From positions 1 through 45,087 of the IMG/VR virus record IMGVR_UViG_3300023184_000225: DNA of 45,087 bases. One strand, written 5' to 3'. Both the position numbers and the translations under genes were made by a program. Each line of letters begins with the position of its first letter. Position 1 is the first letter of the stretch. Below are positions 1,716-12,593 of the stretch, one piece after another. The notes below the pieces were generated by a model. The model was not told where the DNA came from and did no database searches. It saw only the letters and a program-made list of their open reading frames with translations. Origin of the DNA: a virus.

Positions 1716-3284
1716 TCAATGAAGCACAGATATGAAAGGCATGGGCTCAATTATTGTGTCTCCGTGATCCCTCAACTGCGTTTCTACGTCTGAATAATAG
1801 CTCTGTAAAACAGTCATCATACGCACTGCCAATATGCTGGCCATTATAAGATCGTCTGTTTCGCCAATTTTTGCAGCATATCCCAGTCCTGATGCCACAA
1901 ATGTTTTTAATTCACTTATTAAACTTCTAGAATTAACAGTCATACGCCCTGATTCTATTAGATTTTTCAATTTAGAACAGGCACTCAGTTTGGTTTTGTT
2001 GGTGGTATTGAACCCTTTTCTAAAGCGTCTAGAAGTTGAGCTTGCAGTGTCGCTTAAAAAATATCCCGGAATGTTTTCTTCACCGTATTCAGCAATGCTG
2101 ATTAGTGCAGCTTCACCAATGGTGTTGTTCTCCACTGAGTAGTAGATGCTTTTGTCATCTTGAACTGTTTCATGCAGATGTTTTATGATATCGGCTAGTA
2201 TGCGTATTTGTTCAGGTATGGGAGTGAGATTGTGTCGCCATTCTCCCACTTGCCGAGTGGTGTTGGCTTCAAAAATTTGTATGGCAGCCGGATCGCCACC
2301 GGTGCCCAAGCTGGGATCCAATGCCACCACATACACTTGATCTTTGCGTATGGGTTCATACCACCGCACCTGTCCAGTTTTGTATGTGGGTTCTTTGCCA
2401 GTTAAATCCAACAGCTTGATTGGAGCAATTAGTGTTTCGTCATTGATAATGAATTCGCAACCCATTTCTCTGCGAAAACGATCTTCGCCTAATGCTGCCC
2501 GTGATTGTATTGCCCAAGTTTCATCTCGGTCTGGATGTTCGTTCCAGTAGCTGCGAAATGCTCTGAATCCATTGATGCCTAGTTCTGTAGCATTGCCATG
2601 ATCATCTTCGCACTTGTTGGCGCCTTTCCACAAGAACGCAAACTGATCTTCGTCTGAGTTAGGAGTTGATGTAATAATTGCTTTACCACCAGTGGCCAGT
2701 GTGGGTGAAATAGAAGTCCAAAACTCTTTGGCAATGGTGGGTCGCACATACGCAAACTCGTCAGCGTACAGCAAGGATATTGACATACCCCGGCCGGTTG
2801 TTTCTGTTGTGGTTGCAGAAACTATGCGTGATCCATTTTCAAAGTCAATTGACCCTTTGTTATAGCTGGTTACACCAGCGCGAATAAAATCAGGACACAG
2901 TTCATATGCGTATCTAATACGTTGCATGATCTCTTGTGCGCCTGTGTACTTGTGTGCAGCAACTAGAATGGTCGAGTCCGGCACAAACATAGCATACCAC
3001 AGCAAGTATCCAGCAGCTGATGTAGACTTACCAGTCTGTCTAGGCATCATTGATATGGAAAACCGATAGTTGTGATATGTGTTGATCAGACGTTTCTGAT
3101 ATTCAAACGGATGATACACCATTTTTCCCTGTGTGGGATGTTGAATGTAGAAAAAATGGTCCATGAAATACGCAGGTCCAGTAACTGGATCTGCGCAGGC
3201 TAGAAAATGTTCCAGTTCCTGATCACTGAATATTTGTTGACGGTGCGGCGATTTAACTAATACGCCTTCTAATGACTTGGCCAT
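1716..3284 (-). CDS. gp17: Terminase large subunit gp17 (DNA-packaging ATPase and nuclease)
   Basis: This is the motor that translocates DNA into the prohead and cuts the concatemer. The 522-residue product has the T4 gp17 layout. Walker A-type PRQTGKST is at residues 81-88, Walker B LLYADE at 171-176, and the coupling motif TSTPN at 205-209. An RNase H-fold nuclease domain follows, with acidic residues D323 (VVALDPSLG), E385 (YYSVENN) and D477/D478 (ETDDLIMA), matching T4 D401, E458 and D542 in order and context. It is shorter than T4 gp17 (610 aa), mainly at the ends. The start at 3284 follows the SGNH gene by 7 nt. A degenerate late box GTTAAATA overlaps that gene's stop codon. Its usual partner gp16 lies about 6.2 kb upstream instead of adjacent. 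Confidence 0.96.
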   Translation of the reverse strand: MAKSLEGVLVKSPHRQQIFSDQELEHFLACADPVTGPAYFMDHFFYIQHPTQGKMVYHPFEYQKRLINTYHNYRFSISMMPRQTGKSTSAAGYLLWYAMFVPDSTILVAAHKYTGAQEIMQRIRYAYELCPDFIRAGVTSYNKGSIDFENGSRIVSATTTETTGRGMSISLLYADEFAYVRPTIAKEFWTSISPTLATGGKAIITSTPNSDEDQFAFLWKGANKCEDDHGNATELGINGFRAFRSYWNEHPDRDETWAIQSRAALGEDRFRREMGCEFIINDETLIAPIKLLDLTGKEPTYKTGQVRWYEPIRKDQVYVVALDPSLGTGGDPAAIQIFEANTTRQVGEWRHNLTPIPEQIRILADIIKHLHETVQDDKSIYYSVENNTIGEAALISIAEYGEENIPGYFLSDTASSTSRRFRKGFNTTNKTKLSACSKLKNLIESGRMTVNSRSLISELKTFVASGLGYAAKIGETDDLIMASILAVRMMTVLQSYYSDVETQLRDHGDTIIEPMPFISVLH

Positions 3285-3288
3285 GATC

Positions 3289-3296
3289 TATTTAAC
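3289..3296 (-). promoter_or_regulatory. Possible late promoter box GTTAAATA before gp17
   Basis: GTTAAATA has two mismatches to TATAAATA and lies 4 nt before the gp17 ATG. It contains the TAA stop of the upstream gene. It is weak on its own and is listed because the same arrangement recurs elsewhere in the window. Confidence 0.3.
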
Positions 3297-4029
3297 GGTT
3301 AATTCGTTCGGCAATATAATCTGCAGCCACAGAGTGAAATTTTGGACCAGCATGATGGCCGCATCGAGACCAATCAACTGGTTGCAATTTGTCCCAATTT
3401 TCTTTGCTTATTTCGGCCATTGAAAATTTATAGTAAGGCACTTTGTTTTTTTCACATACCCATTGCATGGCGTTGGTATTTTTTTCCTGATTCAAGTTGT
3501 AGTTTTCTTCATGAGCATACCATGCGTTTATTGTGGCTTTTATATCAGCAGAACTAACAGGTGCATGTGGAGAACTGACAGCCTGCCATTGATTGTCTAC
3601 ATATACTTCAAACCCGGCTTTTTCGCCGCCAAGTTGGATGACCATTGTTACGTTCAACTGGGAAATGTAATTTTTTAAAACTCGATACATGGTATCCAGA
3701 CACCCAGTGCCAGTTGCTAGATTCCAAATTGGTACATTTATTTTTTTACTCAATTGTTCGGACCATGTTTGAGACTGATGCAATCCTACTCCCACTGTGG
3801 GACTACTGCCCAATATTATAATTCTTTCGGACTGATCAAAATCATCTGTGCGGAATCCGCCACTGTTGAATCTATATTCTATCACACTGTTGTTTGACCA
3901 ACCAGACTGTGTCCAAGTTGGATAAAATGCCGGATCGTTGAGTAATCTTTGAGTCTTGGGACGATCAGTTCCAACCCAATTTAAAGTTAAATTGGCATAC
4001 TGAGAATAATTGTGTAGGCAATGCTCCAT
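3292..4029 (-). CDS. SGNH/GDSL-hydrolase-like protein
   Basis: The 245-residue product resembles SGNH-fold esterases found in aquatic phages. FNSGGFRTDDF (residues 54-64) leads into a first-block motif IILGSSPTVGVGL (71-83), where S75 or S76 is the candidate nucleophile. NLATGTGCLD (103-112) fits block II. A C-terminal H-rich segment RCGHHAGPKFHSVAAD (222-237) fits the catalytic Asp/His block. The block III asparagine is not obvious (IQLGGEKA), so activity is uncertain. The frame is open further, to an ATG at 4143. I prefer the ATG at 4029 because it lies 7 nt after the nuclease stop, whereas the longer form would overlap the nuclease by over 100 bases. A role in modifying cell-surface glycans or lipids is inference. 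Confidence 0.7.
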   Translation of the reverse strand: MEHCLHNYSQYANLTLNWVGTDRPKTQRLLNDPAFYPTWTQSGWSNNSVIEYRFNSGGFRTDDFDQSERIIILGSSPTVGVGLHQSQTWSEQLSKKINVPIWNLATGTGCLDTMYRVLKNYISQLNVTMVIQLGGEKAGFEVYVDNQWQAVSSPHAPVSSADIKATINAWYAHEENYNLNQEKNTNAMQWVCEKNKVPYYKFSMAEISKENWDKLQPVDWSRCGHHAGPKFHSVAADYIAERINR

Positions 4030-4036
4030 CAACAAA

Positions 4037-4849
4037 TTATTCAGCTCGCCCGCACTTTTGTCGTTTGGCGTTGGTGAGTGCGCCAAAGTCCACTGGCCAT
4101 TCTGTGCCAGGTGCAATTTCCTTGGCAGCGGGCGGTAAGGCAAATCTTACTCCAGCATACTCTTGTATCTGCGCAACAGGAGCACGAAACTTGGTCAAGT
4201 CGTTGCCCAAGTTAACATAAGGTTTGACATGTGGAAAAATCCAGCCGGCCACTTGCCCTGTGGCCTGATTAATCACCAGCTTGTAGTAGCCATGTGGCAC
4301 CACAACACCGTTGCCAATTGTAGGGTCATTTGCATTGTACATGGCACCTACAAAGATTGTGTATGGCTGGTTCAGTTGCACAGCCCAACCACGCACTGCG
4401 GTTTCTAACAGTTTCCAAATACCACGGTTGAGACTTCCATGTTGTGGATACATATTGGTCATTAGGAATGATTCGTACTCTACTTGTTGGCTCCATGATA
4501 AGTCGCCATCAGGAGCAGCATGCCCTTTGTCGTAGCCTGTGCCTGCATAGTCGTCTGGTCTTGCACCACCTGGCACTGATTGATCAGCAACAAATGCGTT
4601 TGTTCGTGGAAAGCAGCCTAGTGCGTTTTGTGGCTGTAGAGTGTAAGCGACATAAACAGGAATCTTTGCAGGTGCATCATAGGCCACTAGATATGCTTCT
4701 CTGCAGATGGCATGTGCTAGGCGGGCTGTTTGTGCCCATCCCCAAGGTGAGTGTATCTGACAGGCTTGTGCAGGTAGCGGAGCACGTTGGTCCCAGGCTT
4801 GAGACGACATGCTGACCACAATCAGCAGTATAGCTAATATTTTTTTCAT
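4037..4849 (-). CDS. Secreted DNA/RNA non-specific endonuclease (NucA/EndoG/Serratia family)
   Basis: This is a 270-residue beta-beta-alpha-metal nuclease with an N-terminal export signal. MKK, a hydrophobic run ILAILLIVVSM and SSQAW (residues 1-19) form a typical signal peptide with cleavage near A18. The active-site motif YDKGH is at 106-110 (DRGH in the family), with H110 as general base. N141 in SLNRGIW is the metal ligand and E149 follows. The H-to-N spacing of 31 and N-to-E spacing of 8 match Serratia nuclease (30 and 8). The family cleaves single- and double-stranded DNA and RNA. It sits among head genes, preceded by AAGG at SD distance and a degenerate late box. A signal peptide on a late phage nuclease points to the periplasm or medium rather than genome packaging. 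Destroying competing DNA or nucleotide scavenging are inferences. Confidence 0.88.
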   Translation of the reverse strand: MKKILAILLIVVSMSSQAWDQRAPLPAQACQIHSPWGWAQTARLAHAICREAYLVAYDAPAKIPVYVAYTLQPQNALGCFPRTNAFVADQSVPGGARPDDYAGTGYDKGHAAPDGDLSWSQQVEYESFLMTNMYPQHGSLNRGIWKLLETAVRGWAVQLNQPYTIFVGAMYNANDPTIGNGVVVPHGYYKLVINQATGQVAGWIFPHVKPYVNLGNDLTKFRAPVAQIQEYAGVRFALPPAAKEIAPGTEWPVDFGALTNAKRQKCGRAE

Positions 4850-4874
4850 TGTTGACCTTGTAGTAATGTACGGC

Positions 4875-4882
4875 TATTTACC
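4875..4882 (-). promoter_or_regulatory. Possible late promoter box GGTAAATA before the nuclease gene
   Basis: GGTAAATA (two mismatches to TATAAATA) lies 25 nt before the nuclease ATG and includes the TAA stop of the upstream gene. An AAGG ribosome binding site lies between the box and the ATG. Confidence 0.3.
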
Positions 4883-5264
4883 GTGGGTAGCCAGCAAATG
4901 CTTTTACAGGGCTTGTTTTGTCCACAAAGTCAGGCTCTGTACTAGTGGGTGTAGATACCATTTTCTTGCCACCAGGTGTGTTGGTCATTGCCAATGCTCG
5001 GTCAATTACTTGAGCAACACTTGCAGCCATGCCTTCAATCACACCGTGTTCGCCAAATGCGGTTTCGGCACTCCAAGGAGGTATATTGTCAGTGATACCG
5101 TCGGTGCCGGCGTCGCTTCTGGCACGGGCCAGAGCCACACCAAATCTATAACTGCGATAGGGATCAGCTGCACTCAGCCCTGGAATCACATAAGTGTAAC
5201 GCATGGGATCTGCATACTCGGGTGGCAAGTTGGCTTGCTCGGTAATAAACTCTCGAGCTCTCAT
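4878..5264 (-). CDS. Small protein with capsid-targeting-like N-terminus, paralogue A
   Basis: This 128-residue protein begins MRAREFITEQ. That resembles the T4 capsid targeting sequence MKTYQEFIAEA of internal proteins IPI-III, which prohead protease gp21 cuts after (L/I)xE; here ITE is at residues 7-9. It ends SPVKAFAGYPR. Both ends match the adjacent gene (MRAQEFVTE...SPVKGFSGYPR), while the middles differ, so the two are paralogues or share terminal modules. The start codon overlaps the stop of the upstream paralogue as ATGA, indicating translational coupling. No enzymatic motif was seen. The inferred role is a protein packaged inside the head; direct evidence is only the N-terminal similarity and the morphogenesis context. 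Confidence 0.75.
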   Translation of the reverse strand: MRAREFITEQANLPPEYADPMRYTYVIPGLSAADPYRSYRFGVALARARSDAGTDGITDNIPPWSAETAFGEHGVIEGMAASVAQVIDRALAMTNTPGGKKMVSTPTSTEPDFVDKTSPVKAFAGYPR

Positions 5265-5644
5265 CTTGGATATCCCGAAAATCCTTTTACAGGACTGACT
5301 TTATGAGTATCCGGTGTTTCTAAGCTGCGATGATCACTTATAGTGTGAATGTGCTCTGACCCAATAGTCTTCATGGCACCATGTACCATGTTGTCTTCTT
5401 CTTTGGTATAAGGATGAGCTGTGTTGTATTTTTCAACCCAGCTGGCTGGATCCATTTGGTCTCTTGGTATGGCTTTTGGACTTTTTCCATCATGCATGGC
5501 CATGGCCATCATCATACGATTCATGTGATTGCTACGATCGTAACCGCCATTGTCACGCATGGTATGAGCACCTGGCATAGCATTGTCTGCGCCGCCGGGT
5601 ATTTTACCTTTGCGATCTTCAGTGACGAATTCTTGTGCTCGCAT
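5261..5644 (-). CDS. Small protein with capsid-targeting-like N-terminus, paralogue B
   Basis: The 127-residue product starts MRAQEFVTED and ends SPVKGFSGYPR, pairing it with the downstream paralogue. The middle is Met/His/Asp-rich (HMNRMMMAMAMHDG near residues 39-52) and includes WVEKYNTAHPYTKEED. The frame extends to an upstream ATG at 5764, but that would overlap the previous gene by 119 bases. The ATG at 5644 lies one base after that gene's stop and reproduces the paralogue's start. The predicted gp21-type site would be VTE (residues 7-9), a weaker match than I/L-x-E. Function is unknown; packaging into the capsid is inferred. Confidence 0.7.
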   Translation of the reverse strand: MRAQEFVTEDRKGKIPGGADNAMPGAHTMRDNGGYDRSNHMNRMMMAMAMHDGKSPKAIPRDQMDPASWVEKYNTAHPYTKEEDNMVHGAMKTIGSEHIHTISDHRSLETPDTHKVSPVKGFSGYPR

Positions 5645-5645
5645 G

Positions 5646-5969
5646 TTATCTGCCGTTTGAACCAGCTGTGGCTGACGTTGCTGCGCCAATTGCTGTGGCA
5701 GTAAAGCCTGTACCTGTAATGATGTTGAGATAATTGCCCACACCCACATAATACTGTTGAACACTATTGCCTGGAATCACTATTGCATTTGCATAGATGT
5801 TACCAGTTGCAGTGCTCATACTTGCGTTTGCTGGAACTCCATTTGCTTGAACATAAGTTAATTGCACTGCGGAAACTTGAAAAGTCACATTGGCAGTGGT
5901 AGTGGCAATTTCAACTTTGTCAGTAGTCCAGGCCACGTTTGATACTGCATTGACAACTTGAATAGCCAT
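5646..5969 (-). CDS. Small Thr/Ala/Val-rich putative structural protein
   Basis: This is a 107-residue protein rich in Ala, Thr, Val and Asn, with alternating hydrophobic stretches (VEIATTTANVTFQVSAVQL; later NYLNIITGTGFTATAIG) that suggest an all-beta domain. No enzymatic residues, signal peptide or membrane segment are visible. Its start overlaps the previous stop as TAATG and its stop is one base before the next ATG, so it is embedded in a coupled operon of head-associated genes. A small decoration or fibre-like virion protein is plausible, but I do not recognise the family. Confidence 0.7.
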   Translation of the reverse strand: MAIQVVNAVSNVAWTTDKVEIATTTANVTFQVSAVQLTYVQANGVPANASMSTATGNIYANAIVIPGNSVQQYYVGVGNYLNIITGTGFTATAIGAATSATAGSNGR

Positions 5970-6148
5970 TATGTTAGTCCTTTGTTAAGATCTGTCACGC
6001 CCACAGGGCGAAACAAATTTGTAGTTTGTGTGATCACACCAGGTATCATGGCTGGTTGATTACGTACCTCTGAAGGTGTGGGTGCTGGCGGATGACGTTC
6101 CGCCAGTCGTTTCATTGTGTCAGTATAGTTGTTGTACTGTTGTGTCAT
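5969..6148 (-). CDS. Short hypothetical protein, 59 aa
   Basis: A short open frame begins MTQQYNNYTDTMKRLAERHP, continues with PAPTPSEVRN and ends VTDLNKGLT. It fills the gap between the 903-aa and 107-aa genes exactly: its ATG is one base after the upstream TAA, and its own TAA overlaps the next ATG (TAATG). This end-to-end packing is the main evidence that it is real. The composition is hydrophilic with a proline-rich middle and no membrane segment. Function is unknown; a head-associated small protein is likely from context. Confidence 0.65.
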   Translation of the reverse strand: MTQQYNNYTDTMKRLAERHPPAPTPSEVRNQPAMIPGVITQTTNLFRPVGVTDLNKGLT

Positions 6149-6149
6149 T

Positions 6150-8861
6150 TTAGATATTAAACTTAGAAAATTCTTTCATCAAACTTTCTTCAATTTTTTC
6201 TTCTTCTTTTTCTTTTTTGTCGTCAACAGCTTTGGCCATTGGCTCTTTTTTGTCGTTATCTTTATCCATGTCTAGGAAGTCTGGCTTTTTGGCTTCTTGA
6301 ATGCCAGCAATGTTACGCATGCGGCTCAACATCTGTTCAAAACTTTCTGTAACAGATTCGTCGCACTCGCATGGATCGCAATCGCAAGCTGAACATGTTT
6401 TGTCTTCGTCAAGCTCTTCAGTTTCTTGAGATTCTTCAACTTCTTCAGGCGATGGCTCTTCCATTTCTTCAGTATCTTCCTTCATGGTACGTTCCCATGG
6501 CTTGAGATTGTCTTGCTGAATACCAGCCATTTCCATCATTCTACGAAGTTCTTCGTCACCCATTCTGCTGTCTTGATTGGCAATCACAGGCACAGTAGTT
6601 TGACCAGTTGATTTTGGACCGTTCAAGCCACCGGAGTATTGCATTGCATCAGCACTGCCAGTTTGATCAGTTGGATAGTCTGGATTGTTTTCATCTACTG
6701 CTTCCTGCACATCACCGCAACCACAGTCACTCATACCGCAGGTTTCGCAAGGCTCTTCGCTGTGCCCCATTTCATGACCCATTTCTTGTCCCATTGGCTC
6801 GCCGCCGCCTAGACCTGCTGATTTCAGCATCACAGCTAATTTTATAGCATCTTCGTCTGTAGCAGTAATGGTCAAACTCTTACCGCCTTCAGTTGAGTCA
6901 CTCATGTTCACGCTCATTGATTCGGCAATCATGTTTTCTAATTCACGATTGATTGAGTCATAGATGCCTTTGCCATATGAGAAGCCACTTGAAGCTGTGG
7001 GAGTGTCAGCGCCGCCTTGCTCTTTTACTTTCTTGGGCTTGTCTTCTTTCTTGTCTTTCTTCTCGTCGTACTCAATATCTTTGGCAACTTTCTTGCCGGC
7101 CTTTTCGGCCTTGTCATCTTCAGAGCCACGCTTTTTGCCATGGATACCATCTTTCTTCTTTTCGTCGTACTCAATGTCTTTGGTAACTTTTCGGCCGGCT
7201 CGTTCAGCATGGTTGTCACGCTTGGTAGTTTTTTCTTCGCCTACTGCCATTTCTTCTTCGCCACCTTCTTGATTCTGCATGTAGTCGTCCACAGCAGTCA
7301 TCATGCTTTCAATCTTGGCCAACTTGGATTGTACCCATTCTGGCAAGTTGTCGTTGTCGCCTAGGATCTTTTCCAGGGCCTGTGCATGGCGCACCACAGT
7401 CTTGATGCTGTCTTTGGCCATGTCGCCTTCTTGGTCGTATTCGCCTTTTTCTGCTGGATCAAAGTCATTTTCTTTGGTCATCAACTTGCTCTTGCCTGAT
7501 GGTCCTTTGGCGCCCATCTTGCTGCCTGTACCAGCTGGTCTTCCGCGGCCGCGAGCTTGTGGTTGAGCATCAGACGCGTCATCGGCTCCCACTGAATGTC
7601 CTTGGTCATCCACTCTACGAGTTACTTTACGACCTGTAGCTGTATGTTCGATGTCGTGTTTGTGCCCACGATCAACTGTGCCAACTTTAGGAGCATCAAT
7701 ACGAGGACGCTTGTGTGCTGTGAATGCATTGTCGGCACTGCTTTCGTCAGCTGTTTGTTTCTTGACACCTTTGCGCAACATTTCAAAGTCAGTGGCATCA
7801 AGTTTGCCATTTTGATTGCGGTCTAGTTTTTTCTGGCCGCCACTTAATGCACCCTTGATAGCTTCAGCAGCTACATCACCTAGCATTTCGTCAACTTCTT
7901 TTTTGGCGCCGGCAATCTTGTCGGCAAAAGTAATTTTGTTTGCAGGAGGCGCAAGTTTGGCAAATGACTTTTGCTTAGGTGTCATTGACGCCCCGGCCTC
8001 TGGCAGATTGGGTTCTGCATGTGTACCTTGTGCGGCTTTTATACTGCCTTTGAGACTGGAGATTTGACTACGTAATGGCAAGCCTTTTCTTGGTCCTTTT
8101 TCTACAGGACTGCCGCTGCCGCCGCGCCCAAAGCCCTTGCGTAGTGGATCGTTGTGGTCAAATTCGCTACCGCCTATTTTGCGTTTTCTACCTTCATAGT
8201 CATCGGGTTTTGGATTATAATAGAGCTCATCGGCGTCAGGGCCGTAGGTGTAGTCTAGTGGTTCTACTGTGTACAATTTGTCTTTGTACTTTGGGTCACG
8301 GTATTTGGCAGCTTCGGTTGTTTTTTGTTCTGGCTTCTTGCCTGTTTGTGGCACACCCATCTTACGTTGCAGGTCACGCATCATTTCAGCATCGTCGCCG
8401 TGGCCTAATTTGTTTAACACAGCGCCGCCAACTTTCTTGGCCATACCGCCAACTTTCTTGGCCACATTGCCCATGCCTTCGTCGTATTTGTCGTATCTGT
8501 TGCGAACAGGATCTAATGCCTTGCCTTCGCGGCCGGCTTTGGCCAATGCTTGCATGCCTTCTTTGCCATACTTTTCATATCCTTTGGCAGCACGACTCAT
8601 GCCTTCTTCTTCTAGCTGACCAGCTTTCTTCATCTTTTGGAATTGTGCACCGGCAATCCGTTCGCCTTTTTCACCGCCGCCAGCTTTCTTAGCAAGAGCT
8701 TTGAAACCTGTGGTAGCATTGTTATGCTTGCCCATGTCACGCTCATTTAGTGTTTGTGCTAACTCGCTCTTGGGTTTAGTAGCAGGTACTGAATTCTCTG
8801 CAAGAGTTTGTTTTTGACCTAGGTCGGCCAGTCGTTTGTTTAAGTCGTAAAAAAATGTCAT
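6150..8861 (-). CDS. Large charged virion-associated protein with EF-hand-like loop and Cys clusters
   Basis: This 903-residue protein is highly charged (Lys/Glu/Gly/Asp-rich) and probably largely disordered or coiled. The N-terminal part has Lys-Gly-Ala helices (ALAKKAGGGEKGERIAG; KYGKEGMQALAKAGREG near residues 93-110). An EF-hand/dockerin-like calcium loop LDRNQNGKLDATDF is at ~346-359. A duplicated segment A-E-[RK]-A-G-[RK]-K-V-x-K-D-I-E-Y-D-E-K-K occurs at about 550-605. Two cysteine clusters follow, PCETCGMSDCGCG (~704-716) and TCSACDCDPCEC (~820-831). The motifs LRRMMEMAGI (~774-783) and MLSRMRNIAGI (~843-853) resemble each other. The acidic C-terminus ends SLMKEFSKFNI. An AGAGGAT ribosome site precedes the ATG. 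It may be a head core/scaffold or internal protein; no family name is assigned. Confidence 0.75.
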   Translation of the reverse strand: MTFFYDLNKRLADLGQKQTLAENSVPATKPKSELAQTLNERDMGKHNNATTGFKALAKKAGGGEKGERIAGAQFQKMKKAGQLEEEGMSRAAKGYEKYGKEGMQALAKAGREGKALDPVRNRYDKYDEGMGNVAKKVGGMAKKVGGAVLNKLGHGDDAEMMRDLQRKMGVPQTGKKPEQKTTEAAKYRDPKYKDKLYTVEPLDYTYGPDADELYYNPKPDDYEGRKRKIGGSEFDHNDPLRKGFGRGGSGSPVEKGPRKGLPLRSQISSLKGSIKAAQGTHAEPNLPEAGASMTPKQKSFAKLAPPANKITFADKIAGAKKEVDEMLGDVAAEAIKGALSGGQKKLDRNQNGKLDATDFEMLRKGVKKQTADESSADNAFTAHKRPRIDAPKVGTVDRGHKHDIEHTATGRKVTRRVDDQGHSVGADDASDAQPQARGRGRPAGTGSKMGAKGPSGKSKLMTKENDFDPAEKGEYDQEGDMAKDSIKTVVRHAQALEKILGDNDNLPEWVQSKLAKIESMMTAVDDYMQNQEGGEEEMAVGEEKTTKRDNHAERAGRKVTKDIEYDEKKKDGIHGKKRGSEDDKAEKAGKKVAKDIEYDEKKDKKEDKPKKVKEQGGADTPTASSGFSYGKGIYDSINRELENMIAESMSVNMSDSTEGGKSLTITATDEDAIKLAVMLKSAGLGGGEPMGQEMGHEMGHSEEPCETCGMSDCGCGDVQEAVDENNPDYPTDQTGSADAMQYSGGLNGPKSTGQTTVPVIANQDSRMGDEELRRMMEMAGIQQDNLKPWERTMKEDTEEMEEPSPEEVEESQETEELDEDKTCSACDCDPCECDESVTESFEQMLSRMRNIAGIQEAKKPDFLDMDKDNDKKEPMAKAVDDKKEKEEEKIEESLMKEFSKFNI

Positions 8862-8866
8862 TTTGA

Positions 8867-9475
8867 TTATCCTCTTGGGTGGGCACCAGTAGCTGGTTTG
8901 GGTTGACGCTTGATGTTGGTCATAGGGCTCTTGTTGCCCTGGGGAATTTCATTGGTGGTCTTGGCAGGGGGAGTCTTCTGACCAGCAATAGTAAAATCAC
9001 TACGGTAAGCATTTTTCAACACAGCATGGTCATATGGGCCAGTTGAATAGTCTTTCTTGAGTGCTCGTTGTTCAGCATCGGGAGCAGGATAGTCGGTGTT
9101 GGCCAACAGGTCTTTGTTCTGTGCTTCAATACTTGATATTTCGTTGCTGATGCTTTCATCATACTCACGAGTTTGCATGGCAATGCGGTTGGGATTGAAT
9201 CCCAGTAGCTGTGCCAGCTGTTTGATCTGTGGTTCAATTGCAGGATATCGAAAATTAACATCAACAAATGTCATGCTTTCATTTTCTGCGCCAGGAAAAT
9301 CTTTAATAAGTTTTTGCACTGGTGTGGTTTTTGGGCGTGACATATTGACAACATCAAATTGCGCCATTTTTTCTTCAAGATTTTTAACAAATCCTGTAGG
9401 CACATCACCTAAGATTTTGATCCTGTAGTTGTATGTGCGTTCGCTTTCTACTATGTACTGATGAAATGTTTTCAT
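8867..9475 (-). CDS. Putative internal head protein with capsid-targeting-like N-terminus
   Basis: The 202-residue product begins MKTFHQYIVES, very like the T4 internal-protein targeting peptide MKTYQEFIAEA, with a possible gp21 cleavage site after IVE (residues 8-10). The body (residues 14-95) looks like a compact alpha/beta domain: YNYRIKILGDVP, then TFVDVNFRYPAIEPQIKQLAQLLG. The last ~80 residues are hydrophilic and proline-rich. Similar short proteins starting MKTFxxFI followed by YxYRIK occur in aquatic phages as virion proteins (from memory). It follows gp16 and precedes the 903-aa gene by 5 nt. An AATAAATA late box and AGGA, the latter inside a GGATATCC palindrome, precede its ATG. Confidence 0.75.
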   Translation of the reverse strand: MKTFHQYIVESERTYNYRIKILGDVPTGFVKNLEEKMAQFDVVNMSRPKTTPVQKLIKDFPGAENESMTFVDVNFRYPAIEPQIKQLAQLLGFNPNRIAMQTREYDESISNEISSIEAQNKDLLANTDYPAPDAEQRALKKDYSTGPYDHAVLKNAYRSDFTIAGQKTPPAKTTNEIPQGNKSPMTNIKRQPKPATGAHPRG

Positions 9476-10803: not shown

Positions 10804-11949
10804 TTATCCTCCTGGCGATCTAGGAAATACAAAACCACCAGACCCACCCGGCTGCTGACGAACAGCAGCTGGTATGCTGTTTCTAATTGCACCTTTGAGT
10901 GCAATGTTGGCTTCTTCGTTGACCACACTCTTGAGATTCACACCTTTGAATGTGTTGACGGCTGTTCCACCTTTTTGTATTGCACCAATAATGCCGGCCA
11001 CGCCACCACTTTGTAAATCTTCCACAATGCCCACACCTGCATCCAACAAGCCGCCTTGCCCCAATACTGATCTAGTAGAACCTGGCCGTGCCAAACTTGA
11101 TCTAATGTTGTCGTAGTGTGCTGGGTCTGCAAACCCTTTCACATTGGTATCTGGTCTTGAGCCGCCAATGGCACCTGAATAGTACTTTACAGTTTCATAT
11201 TCAATGGTCATCTTGTTGCTCATGATGCCGCCGCTTTCAGCATAGCTGTAGGTGTCGTGGTCCCATGTTTTGATCAATGGATTGATCAGTACATAACTGG
11301 CAAACTTGTGTTGGTCCATACCGTATATGGTAATGTCTCTAAAGAATGGTGGCTTGCCTGACGACTGATTGCCACCTGACCCTACACCAGGACCGCCTGC
11401 ATTGCCTTGACTGTATGACTCACCAATAAATCCCCAATCGTTGACTGTGCGGTTGTTGGCATAGATGTCTCTAACGCCGTAGGCAAATCCAGGTTCGTTG
11501 GCTACTGAACCTATACTGCCATTTTGATTGCTGGCCGAACCGTACTGTTGATTGGAATCTTTGTAGTAGTAACTGTAGTAGTTGTACCACATGTTACGAC
11601 TGAGGTCGCCACCGTCATCATGAAATTCAACTTGCACCGGCTGGTAGTTGATTTTCTTTTGGATTACACGTTTGCGATTGTATTGATTGAGTGTTTCAGT
11701 ATCAATTGAGAATGATGGCAACTGAATTGTTTTGACCAACAAACTCAAGGAACTTTTATCACCTTCGGGAAACACCGACGCCAAGGTAGGAACTTCACTG
11801 GTGTTGATGTTAAAGTATACGTGGAATAAGAACTTGTTCCGCGGAGCAAGTTCATATCCATTTGTAAGGAACGTTTTTGAAGCGTGGGCATAATCTTTAA
11901 GACCTTGCCCACCAAAAAATCCTTTGAGAAAATCTTGCCCAAAGGCCAT
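10804..11949 (-). CDS. Tail-tube-fold baseplate protein (gp54/gp48-like)
   Basis: The 381-residue protein is N-terminally like T4-like tail-tube-associated baseplate proteins: MAFGQDFLKGFFGG, HASKTFLTNGYELAP (22-36), NKFLFHVYFNIN (38-49), and KTIQLPSFSIDTETLNQYNR (73-92) followed by KINYQPVQVEFHDDGGD, a signature shared with the gp19 tube fold. A Gly/Ser/Asn-rich loop (~175-200) interrupts it, and MTIEYETVKYYSGAIGG restores the tube-like beta pattern. The C-terminal ~100 residues are Ala/Gly/Val-rich and end in a Pro-Gly tail. It follows gp19 and likely caps or initiates the tube on the baseplate. Whether it corresponds to gp54 or gp48 is uncertain. Confidence 0.7.
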   Translation of the reverse strand: MAFGQDFLKGFFGGQGLKDYAHASKTFLTNGYELAPRNKFLFHVYFNINTSEVPTLASVFPEGDKSSLSLLVKTIQLPSFSIDTETLNQYNRKRVIQKKINYQPVQVEFHDDGGDLSRNMWYNYYSYYYKDSNQQYGSASNQNGSIGSVANEPGFAYGVRDIYANNRTVNDWGFIGESYSQGNAGGPGVGSGGNQSSGKPPFFRDITIYGMDQHKFASYVLINPLIKTWDHDTYSYAESGGIMSNKMTIEYETVKYYSGAIGGSRPDTNVKGFADPAHYDNIRSSLARPGSTRSVLGQGGLLDAGVGIVEDLQSGGVAGIIGAIQKGGTAVNTFKGVNLKSVVNEEANIALKGAIRNSIPAAVRQQPGGSGGFVFPRSPGG

Positions 11950-11955
11950 AAAAGA

Positions 11956-12573
11956 TTATCCCGTTACAACGTCATTTACTGTACGAGCAACAACTGTACC
12001 AATACCAGTACCGTTAGGTGTTTGATTGGCGTTGTCATACTTGATGGTCATTGCAATTGTGGCAGGATCGTTTGAGCTGTATGCCATGTCGCCGTAGTCG
12101 GCCTGTTGCAAATAGCAACCATACAGTTCCCATGTTTCTAACACAATAGCGTCTGATGCGCCATTGCCGCCGTCGAGTACTTCAAAACGTGTGGTGAACT
12201 TGTAGTCAATACCAGAAGCAGCAGATGCCATTTCCATGAAGTCCATTTGTTTCTGTACTTGTTCGCCAACCAATCGAGTAACTGCACCCGATGCGTCATC
12301 ACGCAAGGTGCAAGTGACATCGTTCCATGTGGCACGTCCAGCCAAATGCAATCTACTGTTGTAGATTGGGATTTCAATGTCTTCAAATTGCAAGCTAGGA
12401 CGTTTGAAGTCCATGACTTGTTTTGTCAATTCTGTTCGGGGTGTGCTCACTCCGAAGTTTTCAAATATCACTCTAAAGCGATATTTAAGTTTAGGCATGA
12501 GTAACCCTTGGTTGCTGGCGCTTTGATCGCTAGCCAAGGGCACTGTCATTCTTGTTAATGATGCAACGGCCAT
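11956..12573 (-). CDS. gp19: Tail tube protein gp19
   Basis: This is the major subunit of the inner tail tube, 205 residues starting MAVASLTRMTVPL. It has the T4 gp19-type pattern LKYRFRVIFENFG, LTKQVMDFKRPSLQFEDIEI, and a C-terminal YDNANQTPNG. The frame is open to a start at 12615, but the ATG at 12573 has an ideal AGGAG 8 nt upstream and a CATAAATA late box in front, which decides the start. It directly follows gp18, as in T4, but is separated from it by a strong intrinsic terminator and has its own late promoter. It can therefore be expressed at a higher level than gp18. Confidence 0.9.
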   Translation of the reverse strand: MAVASLTRMTVPLASDQSASNQGLLMPKLKYRFRVIFENFGVSTPRTELTKQVMDFKRPSLQFEDIEIPIYNSRLHLAGRATWNDVTCTLRDDASGAVTRLVGEQVQKQMDFMEMASAASGIDYKFTTRFEVLDGGNGASDAIVLETWELYGCYLQQADYGDMAYSSNDPATIAMTIKYDNANQTPNGTGIGTVVARTVNDVVTG

Positions 12574-12593
12574 AGTGTTATCTCCTATAATGT

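Follow-up and report, generated by a model that had tools for sequence, protein, structure and literature searches.

Relatives of the jumbo T4-like phages carry a nuclease gene that is unusually strongly conserved and that recurs in a slot directly upstream of the terminase large subunit gene (TerL). Sequence comparisons indicate that the product is very probably exported. Enzymes of this type (PF01223) are well known; their broad and strongly preserved use by these phages is little described. The copy analyzed here lies on a 45-kb virus contig (IMG/VR record IMGVR_UViG_3300023184_000225), and "the window" refers to this whole stretch of 45,087 nucleotides. Features of the window are listed in Table 1.

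Table 1. Positions of the nuclease gene, its predicted functional sites and neighbouring genes in the window.
Feature	Position	Strand	Evidence
Terminase large subunit (TerL), conserved neighbour marking the slot	1716..3284	-	
Downstream gene, no assigned family, likely start ATG 4029 just past the nuclease stop	3292..4029	-	
Nuclease gene (270 aa, ATG start, stop 4037-4039)	4037..4849	-	PF01223 E 2.9e-39
C266, invariant in the window lineage	4052..4054	-	69/69; missing from lineage B with C79
E149, active-site acid	4403..4405	-	invariant
N141, family metal-ligand position	4427..4429	-	invariant
D107-K108-G109-H110 catalytic motif; H110 general base by homology	4520..4531	-	invariant 69/69
C79, invariant in the window lineage; probable partner C266 (predicted pairing)	4613..4615	-	69/69; missing from lineage B together with C266
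C49, invariant	4703..4705	-	same alignments as C30
C30, invariant; probable disulphide with C49 (predicted pairing)	4760..4762	-	kept with C49 in lineages A and B, GN1, XaC1, Muenster
Signal peptide, residues 1-18 (MKKILAILLIVVSMSSQA), predicted cleavage before W19	4796..4849	-	rule passed 69/69
AAGG, ribosome-binding-like site, 6 nt 5' of the nuclease ATG	4856..4859	-	direct read
Upstream co-oriented gene, capsid-targeting-like N-terminus MRAREFITE	4878..5264	-	
Tagged gene, true start at internal MRAQEF	5261-5764	-	
Tagged gene	8867-9475	-	

Family, active site and predicted fold

Scanning IMG/VR gave 243 confirmed stretches that encode relatives of the nuclease, and 80 loci were kept. Together with the window these yielded an alignment of 69 distinct proteins. 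The window protein matches the profile of the DNA/RNA non-specific endonucleases, PF01223, at 135.5 bits (curated cut-off 23), as well as PHROG 14168, "nuclease" (1.2e-34). Its matches in the PDB are chains of EndoG, NucA and the Serratia nuclease; a search of NCBIfam gave no match. A preliminary description of this DNA had read D107-K-G-H110, N141 and E149 as a complete NucA/Serratia-type site, and these residues, K108 among them, are where it placed them and are invariant in the alignment. Across a set of 45 phage and cellular sequences D107, G109 and H110 are invariant, as are N141 and E149. At position 108 the window protein has Lys where the common DRGH motif has Arg. We consider it very likely that the enzyme is active.

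An AlphaFold model based on the alignment of 45 phage and cellular sequences (pLDDT 92.5, pTM 0.88) predicts the beta-beta-alpha-metal fold of NucA, the Serratia nuclease and EndoG. A Foldseek search with the model retrieved EndoG (E 3.5e-18) and Anabaena NucA (1zm8; rmsd 2.4 Å over 214 columns). Profile match and predicted fold thus agree with the earlier view of the protein as a non-specific nuclease. A first model, from a shallow alignment (pLDDT 77.5), rendered the catalytic loop poorly and was replaced by the one described here.

Predicted export

All 69 homologues passed a crude rule for the features of Sec/SPase I signal peptides, which is not a trained predictor. For comparison, the rule was passed by 6 of 896 internal 36-mers from window proteins and by 13.6% of sequences in which the same residues had been shuffled. 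Five of the 90 ORFs of at least 80 amino acids in the window passed; four of these are plus-strand ORFs that match no predicted gene, which leaves the nuclease as the only predicted gene to pass and bears out the signal peptide that had been proposed for it. The residue at position -1 of the predicted cleavage site is A in 66 of the 69 proteins and S in 3, and W19, at +1, is invariant. Conservation is lowest in residues 1-20 (0.54-0.64), while the block 131-150, in the active site, is 99-100% conserved. That the sequence drifts and a signal peptide is nevertheless found in all 69 proteins suggests that selection acts on the property of export and not on the letters.

Cysteines 30, 49, 79 and 266 are also invariant among the 69 proteins. 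From the joint presence or absence of each pair across lineages we infer probable disulphides C30-C49 and C79-C266. Export of an active enzyme, as the preliminary description proposed, is well supported by this comparative evidence, which comprises the signal peptide kept despite drift, the four cysteines, the active site and purifying selection.

Conservation and selection

Distinct relatives are 75-94% identical to the window nuclease, and the dN/dS ratio, with a median of about 0.1 over 287 unsaturated pairs, indicates purifying selection. At 27 terminase-linked loci the nucleases averaged 78.9% pairwise identity, against 73.6% for the terminases, and of the two proteins the nuclease was better conserved in 262 of 351 pairs. 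In most phages where the nuclease holds its 75-94% identity to the window, TerL identity is down to 56-79%; the low value, 56%, was seen in long records that carry both genes. Two loci (L003 and L004) share 94% of nuclease residues with the window and only 77-78% of terminase residues, which suggests that the gene has been exchanged between phages. In 19 records that bear the nuclease, it is the sole PF01223 gene in every case.

No relative of the nuclease was found when the single protein was scanned against 84,980 cellular species. A search with a seven-row alignment found cellular relatives that are 29-44% identical, mostly from Bacteroidota.

The slot upstream of the terminase

The nuclease gene lies directly upstream of the terminase in many relatives and in other gene neighbourhoods in the remainder. 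A search based on the terminase revealed a PF01223 nuclease upstream in 15 of 44 loci that had at least 4 kb of upstream sequence. Ten of these nucleases belong to the lineage of the window copy, lineage A, and five to a second lineage, B, that is 30-37% identical to it. The lineage B set consists of ten sequences upstream of TerL (L183, L184, L196, L200, L226, L228, L232, L241, L243 and L248) with an N-terminus of the form MKK...AQINxQCPQF. All ten have D-R-G-H, N and E, and the signal-peptide rule was passed by each of the nine that reach their start. By this rule both of these deeply separated lineages are exported, and they share the same slot.

In the phylogenetic tree lineage A and lineage B each form a monophyletic group (support 1.0). 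The node that joins them has support of 0.0, and other phage sequences, as well as two from cells, branch close to them or between them, which makes either separate acquisition or an old divergence possible. Half of the long terminase-bearing records (8/16) have a PF01223 gene and half (8/16) have none, including records of 317 and 340 kb, indicating that the nuclease is common but not essential.

The phage, its neighbouring genes and expression

The window contains genes for a tail sheath, tail tube, head closure protein and baseplate wedge, and its T4-type terminase is about 50% identical to those of PA5oct and Phosso. These features indicate that the window phage is a relative of the jumbo T4-like phages. 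By our reading of the IMG/VR sample origins, related phages come mostly from lakes and other fresh water. The gene downstream of the nuclease has an alternative TTG start at 4143 that would make it overlap the nuclease gene. Its motif GSSPTVGVG looks SGNH-like, but no family match supports that label, which we rejected.

Genes adjoining the nuclease have the N-termini MRAREFITE, MRAQEFVTE and MKTFHQYIVE, which resemble what we take to be the T4 capsid targeting sequence, MKTYQEFIAE. The capsid targeting sequence takes internal proteins of T4 into the prohead (PMC3012670). Of 855 ORFs near nuclease loci, 63 begin exactly with a start of the MRAxEF type, a motif that occurs internally nowhere in 231,483 residues; its designation as a head-targeting tag is by resemblance to T4, not by experiment. 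None of the 80 nuclease copies has a capsid-targeting-like start such as T4-type internal head proteins carry. The phage appears able to mark proteins for the head yet leaves the nuclease unmarked, which argues against packaging of the nuclease in the head. An internal head protein, a case that the preliminary description named as refuting it, is therefore disfavoured.

The same description called the gene late, and the one feature that suggests late expression is its position in the head and packaging block. The T4-type late promoter TATAAATA occurs in the window at or below the frequency expected by chance and, not being enriched, lends late timing no promoter support. In the Yersinia phage YerA41 the single particle-marked entry named "Endonuclease", g167, is classed as "middle"; we infer that this is the homologue of the window nuclease.

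Comparison with known systems

The window protein is like the solved members of PF01223 in score, fold and the catalytic D-x-G-H, N and E, and two of them, the Serratia nuclease and NucA, are also exported. It is unlike them in having DKGH in place of DRGH, in its identity of about 25% and in being phage-encoded. Closer in setting are the nucleases of the Klebsiella jumbo phages RaK2, K64-1 and Muenster, known only from their annotation as "Periplasmic DNA/RNA non-specific endonuclease". These share the family, the signal peptide and T4-like jumbo phages as carriers, and Muenster also has DKGH, but they are 25-34% identical and located in another gene neighbourhood. The nucleases of YerA41 and GN1 have the signal peptide, the equivalents of C30 and C49 and the active site; they are about 30% identical, and in GN1 the gene is near tail-fibre genes and does not adjoin the terminase. 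The Sinorhizobium jumbo phage Phosso, whose terminase is among the nearest named ones (49.5%), also encodes an exported PF01223 protein, which differs in being 28-30% identical and in its location in a tRNA-rich region. Exported PF01223 nucleases were also found in Xanthomonas phage XaC1 and Flavobacterium phage immuto, and the signal-peptide rule was passed by all six distant phage proteins examined.

Prophage DNases of Campylobacter jejuni (CJE1441 of CJIE4, dns of CJIE1 and cje0566 of CJIE2) are likewise exported and borne on mobile elements, though the CJIE elements are integrated and temperate, unlike the window phage. CJE1441 is a PF01223-like protein with a signal peptide that is about 24-29% identical to the window nuclease. 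It has been shown experimentally to break down extracellular DNA and to disrupt biofilm, and loss of natural transformation has been linked to the exported DNases of the CJIE elements (PMC4372405). As a general rule the preliminary description is right to have phage nucleases acting in the cytoplasm, yet exported relatives from phages and prophages had already been annotated and one of them, CJE1441, tested.

The YerA41 homologue is annotated as phage-particle-associated. The particle preparation held 63 phage proteins, polymerases and helicases among them, so the presence of the nuclease may reflect contamination or incidental binding. Its ORF (L083 7986-8688) is split into two annotated genes, compared with the single GN1 ORF (L082 7986-8741). 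Each half carries a particle-associated or structural annotation, and the split may be an assembly error.

Proposed role and alternatives

We propose that the protein is a His-Asn-Glu metal-dependent, sequence-non-specific endonuclease that would be synthesised as a precursor for Sec export while virions are being made. Its signal peptide would move it out of the cytoplasm, the site of phage DNA replication and packaging; SPase I would cleave after A18, and two disulphides would then form. Activity would be mainly periplasmic, so that the phage's own cytoplasmic DNA is spared; a periplasm is assumed here. The enzyme would degrade DNA, and probably RNA, in the periplasm and in the lysate after burst. 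Its most likely selected role would be to destroy DNA passing through or stalled in the periplasm of the infected cell, such as superinfecting genomes and other incoming DNA, with the clearing of host DNA released at lysis as a by-product or second role. We are evenly divided between belief and doubt about this explanation as a whole, and hold its central element, exclusion of DNA in the periplasm as the main role, somewhat more tentatively.

In T4-infected E. coli, the host's periplasmic endonuclease I degrades superinfecting T-even DNA. A phage whose host has no such enzyme could gain by bringing one. Against exclusion it can be said that DNA crosses the periplasm within a contractile tail, so that incoming DNA would be exposed less often. 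Literature searches on "periplasmic nuclease" with superinfection exclusion, and on endonuclease I with superinfecting T4, returned nothing usable, and no phenotype in superinfection, lysis or biofilm was found for members of the nuclease lineage.

Among the possible roles we favour exclusion of incoming DNA over clearance at lysis, followed by scavenging and then by a role in the virion. If the main value of the nuclease came at or after lysis, it would cut host DNA that is sticky, or the extracellular DNA of aggregates, so that large virions can diffuse. This is conceivable but we doubt it. An exported, disulphide-stabilised enzyme would persist outside cells, the nuclease gene mostly runs in the same direction as structural genes, CJE1441 removes DNA-dependent biofilm, and the mechanism is workable in any host. 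A cytoplasmic nuclease would be released at lysis anyway and would suffice for host DNA, however, and the universal signal peptide thus favours a role before lysis, unless the cytoplasmic form harms the phage. Yet the signal peptide may equally be a means of keeping the phage's own DNA safe, and so it is not decisive between these roles. No lysis genes were recognised adjoining the nuclease in the window. A nutritional role, in which the enzyme digests outside DNA and RNA and so provides nucleosides and phosphate that the infected cell imports for phage DNA synthesis in poor lake water, strikes us as improbable. It fits purifying selection on the nuclease and the high nucleotide demand of related phages, which are jumbo-sized and come from many environmental samples; it would require phosphatases and transporters, none of which were recognised adjoining the gene, and diffusible products would bring little gain to a single infected cell.

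We have little belief in a nuclease that is built into the particle, whether in tail, baseplate or head, to act as the phage enters the cell. The particle annotation in YerA41 makes a virion-bound fraction possible and the window gene sits among head and packaging genes, but every complete copy has a signal peptide, the tag found on neighbouring proteins is lacking from all copies, the gene shifts between neighbourhoods as core structural genes do not, and the YerA41 particle list includes many replication enzymes. The idea that the gene is a host-derived passenger of no benefit to the phage is highly improbable. PF01223 nucleases are common in bacteria, but the nearest cellular sequences found are distant (29-44%), the phage clade has full support, and constraint over the 69 variants is strong (dN/dS about 0.1); we rejected the idea on account of this constraint.

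If the nuclease does clear DNA from the periplasm of infected cells, competing phages would be kept apart by a general barrier that does not depend on sequence, and DNA from lysed neighbour cells would likewise be prevented from transforming the cell. The high identity of the nuclease (75-94%) relative to that of the terminase (down to 56%), together with two lineages at one slot, suggests a function that is important in lakes. Such a function has hardly been tested in lytic phages. The broader notion, that a periplasmic DNase widespread in freshwater jumbo T4-like phages is a nuclease-based superinfection barrier, by which the phage loads the periplasm with an enzyme able to cut whatever DNA enters, with two lineages filling the role at the same slot, is one that we offer as a speculation and would not expect to hold in full.

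Other features of the nuclease neighbourhood

The shared tag, MRAxEF[ILV]xE, resembles the capsid targeting sequence of T4 and includes a presumed site of the prohead-protease type. Its carriers are unrelated proteins, an M23 peptidase and a GH19-like protein among them, and the tagged set is a possible list of head-packaged, injected proteins in these phages. One locus, L020, has five tagged ORFs (4390-5037, 5037-5420, 5421-6407, 10955-11656 and 11657-12586). The last is a HAD-like phosphatase-type protein with homologues in, for example, L018, L067 and L078; these proteins have the MRAxEF start and lack the presumed protease-site E. That residue is absent from its usual position in 13 of the 63 tagged proteins, about a fifth.

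In one group of these jumbo phages a conserved cassette lies just upstream of the nuclease. One of its products is YqgE/AlgH-like (PF02622), another is HNH-like and the third is a small membrane protein resembling YbaN/DUF454, the latter two labelled by eye. The cassette is located at 7744-8292, 8362-8874 and 8853-9287 in L020, and its order is kept in L018, L023, L025, L028, L048 and L067. In many relatives, among them L003, L004, L006, L008, L011 and L034, the insertions between the nuclease and TerL comprise at least one radical-SAM/SPASM-like gene (cluster 5, by eye) and relatives of the downstream gene of the window. The stretch between nuclease and TerL therefore looks like a hot spot for accessory genes.
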